Shown in pieces: positions 20,321-28,456 of a DNA stretch of 64,000 nucleotides. Each line of letters opens with the position of its first letter. Positions within the stretch are counted from its first letter, which is position 1. Below the pieces are notes generated by a model. It was not told the origin of the DNA, ran no database searches, and worked only from the letters and a program-made list of their open reading frames with translations. Made by a program: the position numbers and the translations under genes. The stretch is from Candidatus Thermokryptus mobilis (GTDB lineage Bacteria; Bacteroidota; Ignavibacteria; Kryptoniales; Kryptoniaceae): NCBI RefSeq assembly GCF_900070205.1, contig NZ_FAOO01000003.1, forward strand, positions 103,170 to 167,169, written 5' to 3'.

Positions 20321-20348
20321 AAAGGAAATTCTTCTTTTGATTTGGTGA

Positions 20349-20374
20349 GGCGAGCCATTCGGCTCGCCTTTTTT
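20349..20374 (+). terminator. Rho-independent terminator
   Basis: GGCGAGCC (20349-20356), loop ATTC, GGCTCGCC (20361-20368), TTTTTT (20369-20374). Confidence 0.93.
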
Positions 20375-20446: not shown

Positions 20447-21364
20447 TTGTTAAAAAAGCAAATGAGTAAACAAGGCGCTGAAAGGGAGGGAGTAGTAGAG
20501 CAGGAGTTAGAAATTATAGAGGAAGCGGTTTTAACTTTAAGGGAAACTGGGAAAAAAGCTCCAGAGATAAAAGGGATTCCGACGGGGATTGAAGGTCTGG
20601 ATGATTTGTTTTTTACAACCGTTTTTGAAAATGGAAAAGCAAAATTAATCCCACTTGGTGGGATACCGCAATATTCCGTTTTTAACATAACTGGGATATC
20701 CGATACGGGGAAGAGTTTAATGGCTGAACAATTCGCTATAAAACAAGCTTCGCTTGGTAATTCGGTTGCTTTTATAACAGTGGAATCGCCAGCGCATTTC
20801 GTTGCGAGTTCAATGAAGATGAGGGCTTTAGCTATGGGTGTTGATGAAAAAAGTGTTGATGAGAATATCGTTTTTATTGATGCTGCTTCTTTTAATAAGT
20901 TGAGGGAAGATATACCGACTTTGCTTAACACTCTTGCATATGCGATAAAGAAATACAAGATCAAATTTACTGTCATTGATTCAGTTACAGGGCTTTATGA
21001 GGCGAAGGAGATGATAGCAAGGGTTATTGTAAGGCAACTTTTTAATTTTATGAAGAAGTGGTATCAAACAGCTATTTTCGTTTCTCAGAAGAGGTCGGGT
21101 CAGGAGGAACTTTCAGCTGAAGCAGCTGGTGGGTTTGCAATTCCTCATATTGTTGATGGGACAATTGTTTTGTCAAAAGTTTTGATAAATAGTCAGTATA
21201 CCGAGAAAATTTACAAGCGACCGATAGGTGAGATAGTTCGGCTTTTTAGGATTGACGGTTGCAGAATGTCTGGTCATAGCACCGATACATATCTTCTTGA
21301 GATAAGTGAAAGTGGTCTTGTAAAAATCGGGCCATCTTTAAAGGAAATAGCAAACAAAAAGTGA
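20447..21364 (+). CDS. KaiC-like RecA-superfamily ATPase (archaeal AF_0795-like type)
   Basis: 305 residues, one KaiC/RAD55-type domain. Walker A is GISDTGKS (near residue 85), followed by the strand AFITVESPAHF and Walker B FTVIDSVTGLYEA (near 180). A FVSQKRSG switch-like region follows, and a KaiC-like C-terminal strand pair (RIDGCRMSGHSTDTYLLEIS). The N-terminus has the family's IPTGIEGLDDLF. TTG 20447 is chosen because AAGGGA precedes it; ATG 20462 is the alternative. From memory this fits the single-domain family found in archaea and thermophiles beside a small HTH partner, and that partner is the next gene. Its role is probably signal-dependent regulation. Confidence 0.8.
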   Translation: MLKKQMSKQGAEREGVVEQELEIIEEAVLTLRETGKKAPEIKGIPTGIEGLDDLFFTTVFENGKAKLIPLGGIPQYSVFNITGISDTGKSLMAEQFAIKQASLGNSVAFITVESPAHFVASSMKMRALAMGVDEKSVDENIVFIDAASFNKLREDIPTLLNTLAYAIKKYKIKFTVIDSVTGLYEAKEMIARVIVRQLFNFMKKWYQTAIFVSQKRSGQEELSAEAAGGFAIPHIVDGTIVLSKVLINSQYTEKIYKRPIGEIVRLFRIDGCRMSGHSTDTYLLEISESGLVKIGPSLKEIANKK

Positions 21365-21376
21365 GGATATTTAAAA

Positions 21377-21751
21377 ATGCCGATCATAAAAGAGGAAGAG
21401 GTTATCCAGTTAGAAGAGCAGGTTGACGAACTTGTTTTGAAAGTTTTTTTGAAAGCACTTGACATAGTTGGGGGTCCGAGAAAATTAATTTTATACAGGC
21501 ATTTAACTTGGGTTCCGAGTTTGATTGAGGCTTGCTATGCAGTTGTGTTGAAGGAAAAATTTTTCAAGACGGAATCAGAAATAGCTAGTATCCTTGGTTT
21601 GACAAAGCAAACTGTTAGAAATATATTGACGGCGAAGACGGAGGGAATAAGGGAAAATATTGAAACTGAACTTAAGAAGAAGACGATAAAAACGCATGTA
21701 GCTGGTGCTCTTGCAAAATTGGCTTTTAAAGAGATAAATCAAAGTGCTTAG
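21377..21751 (+). CDS. Small HTH protein, 'near-KaiC' partner
   Basis: 124 residues. Residues about 65-95 contain a helix-turn-helix, KTESEIASILGLTKQTVRNIL, with an N-terminal helical region resembling the regulatory domain that regularly accompanies AF_0795-type KaiC genes. It starts 12 bases after the KaiC-like gene with GAGG ahead, and its frame ends five bases before the ATG of the receiver gene. DNA binding is likely. Pairing with the ATPase is known for the family; the target is unknown. Confidence 0.75.
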   Translation: MPIIKEEEVIQLEEQVDELVLKVFLKALDIVGGPRKLILYRHLTWVPSLIEACYAVVLKEKFFKTESEIASILGLTKQTVRNILTAKTEGIRENIETELKKKTIKTHVAGALAKLAFKEINQSA

Positions 21752-21755
21752 TTTT

Positions 21756-22460
21756 ATGGATAAGACAGAATTGAGAGTTCTTTTAGTTGAGGATGATTCA
21801 AGCATTGCTGGTCTAATCAAGTATTACATGAAAAGTTACAGGGGTTATTTTTTTAACATTGACTGGGTTGATTCAGCTGAAAAGGGAATAGAAAAGTTGT
21901 CAAATGCTGGTGATTATGACATTGTGATACTTGATTATTATCTCCCAGGGCTAAATGGGGTTGAGGCGCTTAAAATTCTGAAGGCGCGCGGGGTAAATAT
22001 ACCAGTTGTGTTCTTGACAGGGGCAAAGGAAAATGAAATCGCTTCAGAGGTTTTAAAACTTGGTGCAGTTGATTATTATGTGAAGGAAGATATAATCGGA
22101 CCGATACTGCCAGTTTTGATCGTTAATATCGTTGAAAGGGAAAATTTAAAAAAGGAAATTGAGAAAGACAGAGATGAAAGTTCCCAAAGGATTGAAGCAA
22201 TTCAAGAGCTGGTTATCACAGTTTCCCATGAGATAAACAACCCGCTTGCAGCTATAAAACTTGCTGCGAACATCTTGCTCAAAAAAGAACTTCCGGTGGA
22301 TATAAAGACATACATCAAGATAATAAAAGAAAATGTTGACAGGATTGAGCATACGATTTTGAAGTTAAGGGAACTTAGAAGCGAGCAAATCGTCCCATAT
22401 GTTGGAAGGTTGCGAATGTTTGATTTATCTTCTGGAGGTGAAAAAAAGGAAGGTGGATAA
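21756..22460 (+). CDS. Receiver domain fused to a histidine-phosphotransfer (HisKA) domain, no ATPase
   Basis: 234 residues from ATG 21756; GTG 21744 is also in frame. A receiver domain occupies 1-125, with acidic pocket VEDD, phospho-acceptor D60 (VILDYYLPG), T/S in FLTGA and Lys in YYVKED. A linker coiled coil leads to a HisKA dimerisation unit, ELVITVSHEINNPLAAIKLA, with phospho-acceptor H158. The protein then stops (SSGGEKKEGG), with none of the N, G1, F or G2 boxes. It can receive phosphate on Asp and perhaps His but cannot autophosphorylate, so it is probably a relay protein. Confidence 0.8.
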   Translation: MDKTELRVLLVEDDSSIAGLIKYYMKSYRGYFFNIDWVDSAEKGIEKLSNAGDYDIVILDYYLPGLNGVEALKILKARGVNIPVVFLTGAKENEIASEVLKLGAVDYYVKEDIIGPILPVLIVNIVERENLKKEIEKDRDESSQRIEAIQELVITVSHEINNPLAAIKLAANILLKKELPVDIKTYIKIIKENVDRIEHTILKLRELRSEQIVPYVGRLRMFDLSSGGEKKEGG

Positions 22461-23831
22461 ATGCCTGATGGGAGCATTAAACCGAAAATACTCGTTGTAG
22501 ATGATGAGGAATACCTATGTGAGCTTTTAAAGGAAGAGCTTCTTTCTACGAAAATGTTTGAAGTTGATATAGCAAATGATGGAGCTCAGGCGATAAATAA
22601 AATTCAAAGTGGGCTCTATGACCTTGTCTTGCTTGATATAAAAATGCCGAGGATTTCGGGGATTGAAGTTTTAAAGTTCATAAAAGAATTTTCACCGGAT
22701 ACTGAAGTTATTATGATAACGGCCCATGGAGATATAAAGCTTGCGGTTGAGACGATAAAGCTTGGTGCCTTTGATTTTATAACGAAGCCATATAATTTTG
22801 ATGAGCTTCTTGTTTCAATTCAAAATGCGCTTGAGCGAAGGAATTTGAAACTTCAAAACAGGTTGATGAAAAAAGAGATTTCGCGCCTCATCCACGATGA
22901 TGAAGTTGTGGGGCAAAGCAAAATTTTTAAAGATGTGCTTGACATTGTCGCTAAAGTTGCCGGGACTGATGCAACTGTTTTGATTTATGGTGAGAGCGGA
23001 ACCGGGAAAGAAGTCATAGCACGCCTTATCCATAAAAATAGCCCAAGGCGTGATAAACCATTCGTTGCGATAAATTGTGCTGCGATTCCTGACACTTTGA
23101 TTGAATCGGAATTATTTGGACACGAAAAAGGGGCTTTTACGGATGCTTATACTTCAAAGCCTGGGCTTGTTGAGATTGCAAATGGCGGGACATTGTTCCT
23201 TGATGAAGTTGGGGATTTAAGTCAATATGTTCAGCCGAAACTTTTAAGGTTTATTGAAACGGGCGAATTTAGAAGAGTTGGTGGAAATAACATTCTTAAA
23301 GTTGATGTTAGAATAATTTCAGCCACTAACAAGGACTTGAGTGAAGAGGTACGCAAAGGGAATTTCAGAGAGGACTTGCTTTACAGGTTAAATGTTGTTA
23401 CGATTCGGCTTCCCGCATTAAGGGAAAGAAAAGAAGATATACCTCTTTTTGTTGATTATTTTTTAAAGAAGAAAACACTTGGGCGGAAAAAAATGAGTCC
23501 AGAAGCGATGAAGATATTGATTGAGTACGATTGGCCTGGGAATATACGCGAGCTTGAAAATGTCATTGAAAGAGCTGCTATCCTTGCAAAAGATGATTTG
23601 ATAAAGCCTGGGGACTTAGCTATAAAGCCGGAATTGAAGGAAGATTATTATGCAAAGCTTGCGAAAAAGCCCGTTAATTCACTTTCGCTTGCTGAACTTG
23701 AGAAGATTCATATTGAAAATGTCCTTAAGGCAAATAATTGGAATAAATCAAAGACCGCTGAAGTACTTGGAATTAGTTTAAAAACGCTTTACCTTAAGTT
23801 AAAGCGGTATGGGATAACTGAACCGTTTTAA
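22461..23831 (+). CDS. NtrC-family sigma54-dependent response regulator with GAFTDA motif
   Basis: 456 residues: receiver (D near 57, LVLLDIKMPRISG), AAA+ sigma54-activator domain (Walker A GESGTGKE, Walker B GGTLFLDEVGDL, R-finger region FREDLLYRLNVV), and C-terminal Fis-type HTH (NKSKTAEVLGISLKTLYLKLKRYG). The sigma54-contacting loop reads GAFTDA (residues 224-229) instead of GAFTGA, a change known to weaken or alter activation in some members. It starts directly after the preceding stop, with GGAAGGTGG ahead. It is probably the transcriptional output of this cassette. Confidence 0.93.
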   Translation: MPDGSIKPKILVVDDEEYLCELLKEELLSTKMFEVDIANDGAQAINKIQSGLYDLVLLDIKMPRISGIEVLKFIKEFSPDTEVIMITAHGDIKLAVETIKLGAFDFITKPYNFDELLVSIQNALERRNLKLQNRLMKKEISRLIHDDEVVGQSKIFKDVLDIVAKVAGTDATVLIYGESGTGKEVIARLIHKNSPRRDKPFVAINCAAIPDTLIESELFGHEKGAFTDAYTSKPGLVEIANGGTLFLDEVGDLSQYVQPKLLRFIETGEFRRVGGNNILKVDVRIISATNKDLSEEVRKGNFREDLLYRLNVVTIRLPALRERKEDIPLFVDYFLKKKTLGRKKMSPEAMKILIEYDWPGNIRELENVIERAAILAKDDLIKPGDLAIKPELKEDYYAKLAKKPVNSLSLAELEKIHIENVLKANNWNKSKTAEVLGISLKTLYLKLKRYGITEPF

Positions 23832-23865
23832 TCATTTAAATAAAACAAAAATTTTGGGAGAAATG

Positions 23866-24819
23866 ATGGGGATGGAAATGGAAAGGGAAAATACGCAACC
23901 AATTGAGATCCAGGAGGGAGAGGGCAAACCGAAGTTAATAGCTGGGAGACAGCCGGTTATTGAAGCGCTTAAATCACAAAGCGTTATGATTGAAAAAATT
24001 TACATCCTTCACGGGATAAGAGGAAGTCAAATTGATAAGATAAGAAATTTGGCGCGCAAAAAGGGCGTGCCAGTTGTTGATTTAAACAAACAAAGATTTC
24101 GTGAATTGGCAAGCGACATAGCCACGCAGGGCGTTATCGCAATGATATCTGAGGCAAAATATATAAGTGTTGATGATATTTTGAACATCTCAAAGGAAAG
24201 AGGAGAAGCACCGTTTATTTTAATTCTTGACGAGATCGTTGATCCGCAAAATTTTGGAGCACTTGTTAGAACCGCTGAATGTGCTGGAGTTCATGGGGTT
24301 ATAACTACAAAGCATCACACAGCGATTATAAATTCAACGGTTGCCAGAGCTTCAGCTGGAGCTGTGGCTCACATTGGAATAGCTAAAGTTACAAATCTTG
24401 CACAAACGCTTGACGAACTTAAAGAAAAAGGGATTTGGATAGTTGGAGCGGATGCAAACGCTGCGAAATATTACTATGAAGTTGATTACACAATGCCCGT
24501 CGCTATCGTCATAGGAAATGAAGGCAAAGGTTTAAGATTTCTAACCAAACAGAAATGTGATTTTCTTGTTAAGATTCCAATGTATGGAAAAGTTGAATCG
24601 CTGAATGCCTCCGTTGCAGGTGCTTTGATTATGTATGAGGTTGTCAGAGCGAGGGAGTTGAGAAAGAAAAAAAATATAAATCCGTATATTTTAAATGAAC
24701 CGATCTCGGAGTTTTTCTCCCCCATAGCTGAGCAGCAAAAATTGATCAGCGAGCAAATTGAAAAAGAGGAAAATCCCGAAACCAAGAAGAAAAAGAAAAC
24801 GAAGAAACAGCAGAAGTGA
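23866..24819 (+). CDS. rlmB: SPOUT-family 23S rRNA 2'-O-ribose methyltransferase (RlmB/TrmH)
   Basis: About 317 residues. The N-terminal substrate-binding domain begins IAGRQPVIEALKS. The knotted SPOUT domain has DEIVDPQNFGALVRTAECAGVHGV, NSTVARASAGAVAHI, VIGNEGKGL and the SLNASVAGALIMYE C-terminal knot. The usual target of RlmB is G2251 of 23S rRNA. A lysine-rich tail (KKKKKTKKQQK) of about 45 residues is extra and could bind RNA. The start is ambiguous among ATG 23863, 23866 and 23872, following GGGAG at 23856-23860. Confidence 0.92.
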   Translation: MGMEMERENTQPIEIQEGEGKPKLIAGRQPVIEALKSQSVMIEKIYILHGIRGSQIDKIRNLARKKGVPVVDLNKQRFRELASDIATQGVIAMISEAKYISVDDILNISKERGEAPFILILDEIVDPQNFGALVRTAECAGVHGVITTKHHTAIINSTVARASAGAVAHIGIAKVTNLAQTLDELKEKGIWIVGADANAAKYYYEVDYTMPVAIVIGNEGKGLRFLTKQKCDFLVKIPMYGKVESLNASVAGALIMYEVVRARELRKKKNINPYILNEPISEFFSPIAEQQKLISEQIEKEENPETKKKKKTKKQQK

Positions 24820-26027
24820 ATTTTGAAATTCAGGAAAGAATTTTGAAGCTTGCGGATAAATTTTTACCGAGGATTGTCAGCATAAGAAGAAGGATACATC
24901 AATATCCCGAGCTTGCTTTTGAGGAATATAGGACTTCCAAGCTTGTTTCAAAGGTTTTAAGTTCGCTTGGTTTTAAGGTTATAACAGGTATAGCGAAAAC
25001 AGGGGTTGTTGGTATCCTTGAAGGGAGAGGGAGTGGGAAAGGGGATTATGAAGTTGTTGCTTTGCGTGCGGATATGGATGCACTTCCGATTCAAGAGCAA
25101 ACTGGTTTGCCATTTTCTTCAAAAATTCCCGGTAAGATGCATGCTTGCGGACATGATTCACATACCGCAATGCTTCTAGGTGCTGGTATGATTTTAAAAC
25201 AGTTGCAAGAACATTTCAATGGCATTGTAAAATTTATCTTTCAGCCAAGCGAGGAAAAAAATCCAGGCGGGGCAAGCTTGATGATAAAAGAAGGTGTGTT
25301 GAAATCCCCGGATGTTGAAATTATCTTCGGTTTACATGTTCGTCCAGACGCTGAGCCTGGGACCGTTTTCATTAAAGAAGGTCCGCTTATGGCTTCTTCT
25401 GACGAGATATATCTCAAGATCAAAGGTCGCGGTGGGCATGGAGCTCGTCCTCATTATACGGTTGACCCAATTGTGATCGCTTCGGAAGTTATACTTTCAC
25501 TTCAAAAAATCGCAAGCAGATTCTTTGACCCGATTGAACCAAGAGTTTTAACGATTGGTTCTATTCACGCTGGCTCAGCAACAAATATAATTCCTGATGA
25601 AGTTTTAATCTCGGGTACTTTGAGAACAATGAACGAGGATTGGAGAAGAAAAGCCTGGTCAATGATTGAACAAGTTGTAAAGGGTATAACTTCCGCTTAT
25701 GGGGCTGAATATGAGCTCAGAATTAGCAAAGGTTATCCCGTTCTTGTTAATCATAAAGAAGCGACTGAATTTGCGAGAAAAAGGGCGATTGAATTGCTCG
25801 GGGAAAAGAAGGTTTTTGAGGCAAGACCTGTCATGGGGGCTGAGGATTTTGCTTATTATCTTCAAAAAGTCCCTGGTTGTTTTATCTGGCTTGGCGCTGG
25901 AAGTAAAAACTCAAAATATGATATCCACAGTTCAAAGTTTACGATAAATGAAAATGCAATGAAATTCGGTGCTTCCATTCTCGCTTATCTTGCCTTTTGT
26001 TCCCTTTCAAATAAAGTTAAGTCATAG
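24816..26027 (+). CDS. M20-family amidohydrolase (N-acyl-amino-acid / hippurate type)
   Basis: 403 residues, GTG start overlapping the rlmB stop by four bases. Motifs of the M20D/amidohydrolase group: RRIHQYPELAFEEYRTS, ALRADMDALPIQEQTGLPF, the metal ligands HACGHDSHTAMLLGAG, FQPSEEKNPGGA with the catalytic Glu, and MGAEDFAYYLQKVPG. Zinc-dependent cleavage of N-acyl amino acids or small amides is expected. No signal peptide, so cytoplasmic. The exact substrate cannot be decided from sequence. Confidence 0.92.
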   Translation: MNFEIQERILKLADKFLPRIVSIRRRIHQYPELAFEEYRTSKLVSKVLSSLGFKVITGIAKTGVVGILEGRGSGKGDYEVVALRADMDALPIQEQTGLPFSSKIPGKMHACGHDSHTAMLLGAGMILKQLQEHFNGIVKFIFQPSEEKNPGGASLMIKEGVLKSPDVEIIFGLHVRPDAEPGTVFIKEGPLMASSDEIYLKIKGRGGHGARPHYTVDPIVIASEVILSLQKIASRFFDPIEPRVLTIGSIHAGSATNIIPDEVLISGTLRTMNEDWRRKAWSMIEQVVKGITSAYGAEYELRISKGYPVLVNHKEATEFARKRAIELLGEKKVFEARPVMGAEDFAYYLQKVPGCFIWLGAGSKNSKYDIHSSKFTINENAMKFGASILAYLAFCSLSNKVKS

Positions 26028-26029
26028 AG

Positions 26030-27808
26030 TTGCTCACTGGGGAAGAGCCGAGGTTTAAAAAGTTTTCCGATACAATTGATAAATTGATGTTTATCATCGC
26101 TGGCTCTGTCATAGCAACGCTTTTAATTGAACATGGCTTTTACATTGACGACATCGTGAGAAAAATTATCCATCAGTTTAATTCTTTCGCAGTTTTTTAT
26201 TTTGTTTTCTTCAATCTGTCAAAGCTTGTAATAAGTGAAAAGCCGTTGAGTTACATACGCAGGAAATGGATTGAATTTGTTTTGACTTTTTTAATTTTGA
26301 TTCAAATTTTCGGCTTTTTGATTTACATCCGTCAGCCATATAAAGTTGATGTTTTGACCTTGACGAGAATTTACATTGCTTCTGTGCAGGTTTATCTGGC
26401 GCTTGATATTTGGTTCAAAGTGATAAGATATAGTCAGAAGTTGGTTCAAAAGTCGGTGCATCCAGCAAGGTTATTTATGTTGAGTTTTTTGATTTTAATT
26501 TTTTTGGGGACACTTCTACTTCTTTTGCCAAAAGCGACATACAAGGGGATATCTTTAATAGATGCTCTTTTCACAGCTACGAGTGCTGTTTGCGTTACAG
26601 GTTTGACTGTTGTTGACATTGGGTCATACTTCACTGCGCTTGGTCAATTCATCATAATGCTTTTGATTCAAGTTGGCGGGCTTGGGGTAATGACATTTAC
26701 GACATTTTTTATAACCCTTCTCGGTGGTATAAGTTTGAGGGAGAGGATTTTGCTAAGCGAGATTTTCAATGAGAGAAGTTTAGCGAAGATATCTTCAACG
26801 ATTACTAGGATTTTACTTTTGACATTTACGATTGAGTTTATAGGAGCGATTGCTCTTTTTAATTTTTTGCCTGATTCACTTTTTAAAAACAAGTCAGATA
26901 AAATTTTCCATTCGGTATTTCATTCAATCTCAGCGTTTTGTAACGCTGGTTTTTCAACCTTTTCAAATAATTTAATCGCCATTAAATATAACGCACCCGC
27001 CATTTTGACGATCGCATTTCTGTTTATAGCTGGGGGGCTCGGTTTTATAGTTTTAACCGAGTATACTGAAAAACCAATTTTAAGGTTATTGCGCAGTGTG
27101 AAATTATTCAGGGAGAGAATCCGACCTCAAAGTGTGACTTTAAGTTTGCATTCAAAACTTGCCCTTTCAACGACTTTTATTTTGATAATCTTTGGGACAT
27201 TTTCTTTTTTCGTACTTGAATTTAACAACACTTTGAAAGGCGAGTCATTTTTTTACAAGGTTCTTCATTCTTTTTTCCAAGCAGTGACGCCTAGGACAGC
27301 CGGATTTAATACTTTGGATATATCTCAAATTTCAGTTGCTACTTCTCTTTTGATAATATTTCTTATGTGGGTGGGTGCTTCTCCAGGGTCAACTGGTGGA
27401 GGTATAAAGACGACATCATTTGCCTTGATAATCTTAAAGATAATTTCAATGATGAACGGTAGAGGAAAAGTGGAAATTTTTAAAAAACAGGTTCACGAGG
27501 AGACGGTGATGAGGGCTTTTGTGTTGGCTATTTTTTCAATTTTAATTTTATCAGTAGCGACTTTCTTTTTGACTTTGATTGAGAGGGGGAAGGGTTTGAT
27601 TGACTTGTTTTTTGAAGTTGTTTCAGCTTTTGGGACTGTTGGATTGAGTCGTGGGGTGACATCAAATTTGACAAATGTTGGAAAGTTGATTATCATTATG
27701 ATGATGTTTATTGGAAGAGTTGGAGTTTTGACTGTTTCCTTTGCTTTGTTCGGTAGGATTGAGAGGAGAAATTATGAGTTTCAGAAAGAAAATATACTTG
27801 TGACATAA
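26030..27808 (+). CDS. Trk/Ktr-type potassium transporter membrane subunit
   Basis: 592 residues. Four pore repeats are visible: TSAVCVTGLTVVD, HSISAFCNAGFSTF, AVTPRTAGFNTLD and SAFGTVGLSRGV; SPGSTGGGIKTT follows the third. The first 135 residues add about four membrane segments before the core, longer than usual for KtrB. Start is TTG 26030, two bases after the previous stop; no in-frame ATG lies before residue 19. The RCK subunit gene follows directly. Family role: K+ uptake coupled to Na+ or H+. Confidence 0.93.
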   Translation: MLTGEEPRFKKFSDTIDKLMFIIAGSVIATLLIEHGFYIDDIVRKIIHQFNSFAVFYFVFFNLSKLVISEKPLSYIRRKWIEFVLTFLILIQIFGFLIYIRQPYKVDVLTLTRIYIASVQVYLALDIWFKVIRYSQKLVQKSVHPARLFMLSFLILIFLGTLLLLLPKATYKGISLIDALFTATSAVCVTGLTVVDIGSYFTALGQFIIMLLIQVGGLGVMTFTTFFITLLGGISLRERILLSEIFNERSLAKISSTITRILLLTFTIEFIGAIALFNFLPDSLFKNKSDKIFHSVFHSISAFCNAGFSTFSNNLIAIKYNAPAILTIAFLFIAGGLGFIVLTEYTEKPILRLLRSVKLFRERIRPQSVTLSLHSKLALSTTFILIIFGTFSFFVLEFNNTLKGESFFYKVLHSFFQAVTPRTAGFNTLDISQISVATSLLIIFLMWVGASPGSTGGGIKTTSFALIILKIISMMNGRGKVEIFKKQVHEETVMRAFVLAIFSILILSVATFFLTLIERGKGLIDLFFEVVSAFGTVGLSRGVTSNLTNVGKLIIIMMMFIGRVGVLTVSFALFGRIERRNYEFQKENILVT

Positions 27809-28456
27809 ATGAAAAAGGTCGCGGTTATTGGGCTTGGTAATTTCGGGAAAAGCCTGGCTGAGAATCTCGCTGAAGGAGGCGCGGAAGTCCTTGCAGTTGA
27901 TATAAGCGAGGAAAAAATCAACGAGTTAAATCACCCTAACATAACTGCTGTCAAGTTTGACAGCACAGATGTCAGAGAACTTGAAAGGTTCGGAATTAAA
28001 GATATGGATGCAGTTGTTATAACGATTGGTGAAAATTTTGAAGCGTTACTTTTGACCTGTATGTTGTTAAAAGAAATGGGTGTCAAACGAATAATCGCTC
28101 GTGCGAACGAAAGAATCCATAAGAAAATTTTAAAAAGCGTTGGTATAAGGGAGGAGGATATAATCTCACCTGAAGAGGAGGTTGCAAGGCATCTTGCGAA
28201 AATTATTTTGCGTGAGGGTTTGCTTGAATTTTTTGAAATTGAGAAAGATTATGAAATCGCTCGCCTTAAAGCTCCATCTGAATTTATCGGTAAGTCGCTC
28301 AGAGAAATTGAGCTTAGAAAAAATTTCAATCTTCTTCTCGTCACAATAATTCGGAATAAGAAACCGATAGGTGTTCCTGACCCAGATGTGAAAATTGAAG
28401 ACGGGGATGAACTTCTCATATTCGGCAGGGACAAAGATATTAAAAAGATAAGTTGA
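27809..28456 (+). CDS. Trk/Ktr potassium uptake RCK subunit (TrkA/KtrA)
   Basis: 215 residues: RCK-N Rossmann domain (KKVAVIGLGNFGKSLAENL, then acidic strand end AVD), and RCK-C domain from about residue 135 (IARLKAPSEFIGKSLREIEL, PDVKIEDGDELLIFG). It binds nucleotide and gates the membrane subunit encoded immediately upstream; the junction is TAAATG. Length is that of KtrA rather than the doubled TrkA. Confidence 0.93.
   Translation: MKKVAVIGLGNFGKSLAENLAEGGAEVLAVDISEEKINELNHPNITAVKFDSTDVRELERFGIKDMDAVVITIGENFEALLLTCMLLKEMGVKRIIARANERIHKKILKSVGIREEDIISPEEEVARHLAKIILREGLLEFFEIEKDYEIARLKAPSEFIGKSLREIELRKNFNLLLVTIIRNKKPIGVPDPDVKIEDGDELLIFGRDKDIKKIS

Follow-up and report, generated by a model that had tools for sequence, protein, structure and literature searches.

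The four co-directional genes at 20447-23831 of the window (the whole stretch of 64,000 nucleotides of Candidatus Thermokryptus mobilis DNA that was analysed) are, with high probability, a juxtaposition of two independent modules: a KaiC_2/near-KaiC pair (module A) and a receiver-HisKA protein with an NtrC-type activator (module B). The arrangement is best read as lineage-specific, with both modules belonging to known kinds. The original prediction had treated the four genes as one cassette with an ATPase input; this is not supported, since three Kryptonia genomes and the sister family have module B but no KaiC beside it. The gene run and its surroundings comprise the following features:

20347..20370, + strand: terminator-like hairpin (10 pairs, 7 of them GC), dividing an upstream outer-membrane-protein-like gene from the gene run
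20447..21364, + strand: thermo_KaiC_2, a single-domain RecA/KaiC ATPase (start TTG at 20447 or ATG at 20462; Walker A GISDTGKS)
21377..21751, + strand: near-KaiC HTH protein, a short form of 124 aa without the C-terminal region typical of most homologues
21756..22460, + strand: receiver-HisKA protein without HATPase (phospho-acceptor candidates Asp60 and His158)
22461..23831, + strand: NtrC-type response regulator (receiver, sigma-54 AAA+ domain with GAFTDA, Fis-type HTH)
23854..24819, + strand: SpoU/TrmH-family 2'-O rRNA methyltransferase, the first of the downstream genes that accompany the receiver-HisKA/NtrC pair in Kryptonia, whether KaiC is present or not
24816..26027, + strand: M20 peptidase, a member of the conserved downstream run
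26030..28456, + strand: TrkH-like and TrkA-like genes, belonging to the run that was confirmed in KaiC-less Kryptonia

The four ORFs are present where they had been predicted, and their domain calls agree with those made before. They are separated, in order, by gaps of 12, 4, and 0 bp. This tight spacing makes co-transcription likely and, in consequence, some functional coupling of the modules possible. The single candidate promoter proposed ahead of the four genes was not recovered: no sigma-70-like site was found between the hairpin and the KaiC_2 ORF, and promoter-like matches around the gene run are no commoner than in shuffled sequence. The co-directional run extends past 23831 and encompasses genes for a SpoU/TrmH rRNA methylase, an M20 peptidase, TrkH, TrkA, QueD, and QueE (Trk and Que names assigned from sequence).

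The separation into two modules rests on comparison with related genomes. Within the Kryptonia family, KaiC_2 is encoded in three of seven genomes and the receiver-HisKA protein in six, the exception being G396 (78% complete). In G397, G399, and G401, which harbor no KaiC_2 gene anywhere in the genome, the genes for receiver-HisKA, NtrC, TrmH, M20, TrkH, and TrkA are collinear with the window, and kaiC or near-kaiC remnants were not detectable at the site. The receiver-HisKA and NtrC genes are again adjacent in the sister family (~40-44% and 62-64% identity, respectively). As module B is kept in KaiC-less Kryptonia and in the sister family, it is most simply older than the KaiC pair and independent of it; likewise, as other Kryptonia lack the pair, module B can do without it. 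The Kryptonia sample is small, with seven genomes of which two are 71-78% complete, so that both the absence in G396 and the history of gene loss are uncertain. As a separate observation, the receiver-HisKA/NtrC pair directly follows ftsA-ftsZ in two sister-family loci read closely (L148:6007-9315 and L149:3619-8277), a hint that in these genomes the pair may be connected with cell division or growth control.

In both Kryptonia lineages with KaiC, the pair occupies the identical position upstream of module B, despite a differing gene upstream of KaiC (outer-membrane-protein-like in G000 and G398, a divergent secA in G400). Together with the adjacency and the short gaps, this constancy speaks for a single four-part pathway, in which KaiC_2 would sense or use ATP and act via near-KaiC on the receiver-HisKA protein, with the phosphorelay ending in sigma-54 control. 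Archaeal KaiC-like ATPases have indeed been proposed as signalling hubs, a few of them being fused to receivers (PMC5847659). Such a pathway is nevertheless improbable, given that congeners and the sister family keep module B without KaiC and that the examined loci outside Kryptonia show KaiC_2 without these neighbours. The latter observation had been named in advance as one that would speak against the original prediction; the search for homologous neighbourhoods was carried out, and KaiC_2 homologues routinely lack the neighbours seen here. The comparison covered about 80 named KaiC_2 loci of some ten phyla (Aquificota, Campylobacterota, Thermodesulfobacteriota, Thermotogota, Dictyoglomota, Caldifarciminota, and others); outside Kryptonia, module B adjoins KaiC in none of them.

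Module A pairs a RecA-fold ATPase with an HTH protein, the two being passed on jointly among thermophiles. The ATPase is a single-domain KaiC-like protein, as predicted, matching TIGR03878 (thermo_KaiC_2) with 449 bits (cut-off 232) over model positions 1-258 of 259. Its Walker A motif is intact, with the G and the D-T-G-K core invariant over 48 homologues, and its predicted model (pLDDT 89) resembles single-domain KaiC folds, e.g. PH0284 and the KaiC CI domain. The source genome encodes only one KaiC_2 gene; the nearest named match is from Candidatus Thermokryptus RSWP10 (97% identity). KaiC_2 is unusually conserved, with ~59-76% identity to homologues from other phyla, and its hosts, judged by name, are thermophilic lineages. 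The description of this ATPase as of a mostly archaeal kind was not borne out by the closest 80 loci, which are all titled as bacteria, in a ranking that favours close relatives and is no measure of the archaeal share.

As in the cyanobacterial KaiC-SasA-RpaA clock output, a RecA-fold KaiC ATPase is located near two-component genes. In contrast to that system, only one KaiC domain is present instead of the two tandem domains of clock KaiC (40 bits versus 546 for TIGR02655), no KaiA, KaiB, or SasA gene is adjacent, a sigma-54 activator takes the place of RpaA, and module B exists without KaiC. What Makarova is said to have described in 2017 as the archaeal KaiC signalling hub reportedly comprises a KaiC-like ATPase coupled to signalling partners. 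KaiC_2 adjoins signalling genes in Kryptonia only, and those genes also occur without it.

The second protein of the pair confirms the expected KaiC/near-KaiC pairing. It starts 12 bp downstream of kaiC and matches TIGR03879 (near_KaiC_dom) with 112 bits (cut-off 65). Both proteins are thus far above the curated cut-offs of the TIGR03878/TIGR03879 pair and adjacent, as in most homologous loci that bear near-KaiC. The protein is unlike most homologues in its length: these are 201-222 aa long, with an additional C-terminal region of ~80-95 residues that in some matches DUF2795 weakly. The short form (~124 aa), which lacks this region, is found in Kryptonia, Dictyoglomaceae, one Acidobacteriota MAG, and some genomes of the source genome's phylum. 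Near-KaiC is predicted to be all-helical with an HTH-like core; since a fold search against the PDB returned nothing significant (best E 0.19, the ParB DNA-binding region), the assignment goes no further than an HTH-like fold.

The gene at +1 of KaiC_2 is usually near-KaiC, and the pairwise identities of the two proteins correlate across 53 loci (r=0.92), which suggests that they move as a unit. The nearest relatives of the Kryptonia pair are those of Dictyoglomaceae; the two groups share the ancestry of their pairs, forming one clade in the KaiC_2 and near-KaiC trees (SH-aLRT 100 and 98). In two loci of the Dictyoglomaceae type, the genes on either side of the pair look like metabolic or RNA-modification genes without relation to it (names from sequence). 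When the module B tree is rooted with the sister family, the two lineages with KaiC fall on either side of KaiC-less ones, species with KaiC being basal and also nested among those without. This topology and the identical insertion point make one gain and at least two losses the simplest history of the pair in Kryptonia; a second gain or a transfer between members of the genus is possible. Module A would have entered the Kryptonia lineage at a site immediately ahead of module B, probably earlier than the split of the genus, and some species would later have lost it.

A search for a two-component or other signalling partner of KaiC_2 in other lineages yielded none: besides near-KaiC, only reverse gyrase stands out across phyla, and the remaining recurrent neighbours represent lineage-level synteny or housekeeping genes. 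Reverse gyrase (identity confirmed with 1123 and 1043 bits) is the +2 gene on the same strand in 13 KaiC_2 loci of Campylobacterota and Persephonella-type Aquificota (e.g. L014:8001-12900, L053:4194-9097, and L060:7974-13106), and the near-KaiC stop and the rgy start touch or overlap in several of these. In Campylobacterota and Persephonella, the KaiC pair likely heads an operon with reverse gyrase. No published account of this link was found in open PMC text, a scope outside which most subscription journals fall; a supplementary figure of the Nautilia rgy neighbourhood has been published (PMC2628731).

These neighbourhoods raise the question whether the KaiC pair serves genome maintenance at high temperature and is tied functionally to reverse gyrase (e.g. 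in its expression or loading), with its position in Kryptonia due to chance. The RecA fold plus HTH of the pair fits such a role, as do the 13 loci and one Hydrogenothermaceae locus, in which reverse gyrase lies divergently at -1 of KaiC. In a sample of 249 Campylobacteria, reverse gyrase is encoded in all ten genomes with KaiC_2 (within about 1 kb of it in six) versus 3 of the 239 without, and 31 of 36 KaiC_2 genomes have a reverse gyrase above the cut-off. Thermophily alone could, however, explain this co-occurrence. Moreover, the genes are not adjacent in Kryptonia, the reverse gyrase gene of the source genome (G000:C3:172183-175311) sharing a contig with the KaiC pair at a distance of about 48 kb, and six other genomes of the phylum harbor KaiC_2 with no reverse gyrase detected. 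Within Kryptonia, a tracking of KaiC_2 by reverse gyrase is ruled out, as genomes without KaiC_2 retain reverse gyrase, a presence that is also documented elsewhere (PMC4737851). A functional tie to reverse gyrase thus appears possible but rather doubtful.

Module B, the older of the two modules, combines a receiver-HisKA protein with an NtrC-type sigma-54 activator. Both domain assignments of the original prediction were upheld. The former protein contains Response_reg (8-111) and HisKA (150-207) domains and no HATPase domain; the latter contains receiver, Sigma54_activat, and Fis HTH domains, and rpoN, encoding sigma-54, is present in all seven Kryptonia genomes including that of the source. 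The sigma-54 contact motif reads GAFTDA, not GAFTGA, here and in the NtrC homologues of Kryptonia and the sister family that were read. The positions of Asp60 and His158, counted from the ATG at 21756, are correct as predicted. Asp60 is conserved in all 31 aligned receiver-HisKA rows (a count in which one row duplicates the window). His158 and its H-box SHE[IVL]NNPL are kept in 18 of 18 loci with an adjacent NtrC gene (one being the window) and His158 is replaced in 9 of 12 relatives without one (kept in three), counts whose weight as evidence is reduced by kinship among the rows. This pattern ties the histidine to the NtrC partner. At residues ~215-225, the receiver-HisKA family additionally shows a motif in its C-terminal tail (Y, then M-x-D-[LI]-S) that is conserved across the class of the source genome.

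Histidine phosphotransferases of the Spo0B/ChpT type have a HisKA-like bundle without kinase activity and act between response regulators. The receiver-HisKA protein resembles them in this bundle and differs in that it has a receiver of its own and lacks a recognisable ATPase domain. Receiver-HisKA proteins without an ATPase domain have already been described in archaea (PMC5847659); receiver-(PAS/GAF)-HisKA proteins without HATPase (e.g. the archaeal AF_1472) likewise combine receiver and HisKA domains, with the conserved His and without a catalytic domain, whereas the Kryptonia protein has no intervening PAS or GAF domain and, in Kryptonia and the sister family, is a fixed partner of an NtrC-type regulator.

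As the receiver-HisKA protein has no catalytic domain, its phosphate must come from a kinase elsewhere, which supports the earlier suggestion of a cognate kinase at another locus. Judged from its residues, an Asp-His-Asp phosphorelay through Asp60 and His158 is possible: a histidine kinase encoded elsewhere would probably phosphorylate Asp60, and the dimerisation domain with His158 would then give phosphate to the NtrC receiver, or take it off. Instead of being a phosphotransferase, the protein could be a dimeric scaffold or a phosphatase for the NtrC receiver, His158 then serving dephosphorylation only. For this speak the invariance of Asp60 alongside the loss of His158 in those nine relatives, and the phosphatase role suggested for 'nonenzymatic HK-like proteins' (PMC5847659); the presence of the complete H-box in every relative having an NtrC neighbour argues in the other direction. 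The scaffold or phosphatase role is accordingly regarded as a tentative option, though one to be taken seriously.

In the two-module reading, module A would most probably be a regulator or accessory factor for life at high temperature that binds DNA and depends on ATP, and it may share the transcript of module B without signalling to it. A further reading would have KaiC_2/near-KaiC bind DNA in dependence on ATP and serve genome maintenance at high temperature, in an operon with reverse gyrase in several bacterial lineages; in Kryptonia, the pair would head a sigma-54 phosphorelay operon and perhaps secondarily regulate it. This combination is considered unlikely. The two-module reading keeps a misleading four-part pathway off the record. 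Kryptonia species that have the pair and species that lack it resemble each other in the rest of the locus and thereby represent natural controls. The reverse gyrase operon, finally, offers a functional lead for KaiC_2/near-KaiC, an uncharacterised and strongly conserved gene pair of thermophiles.
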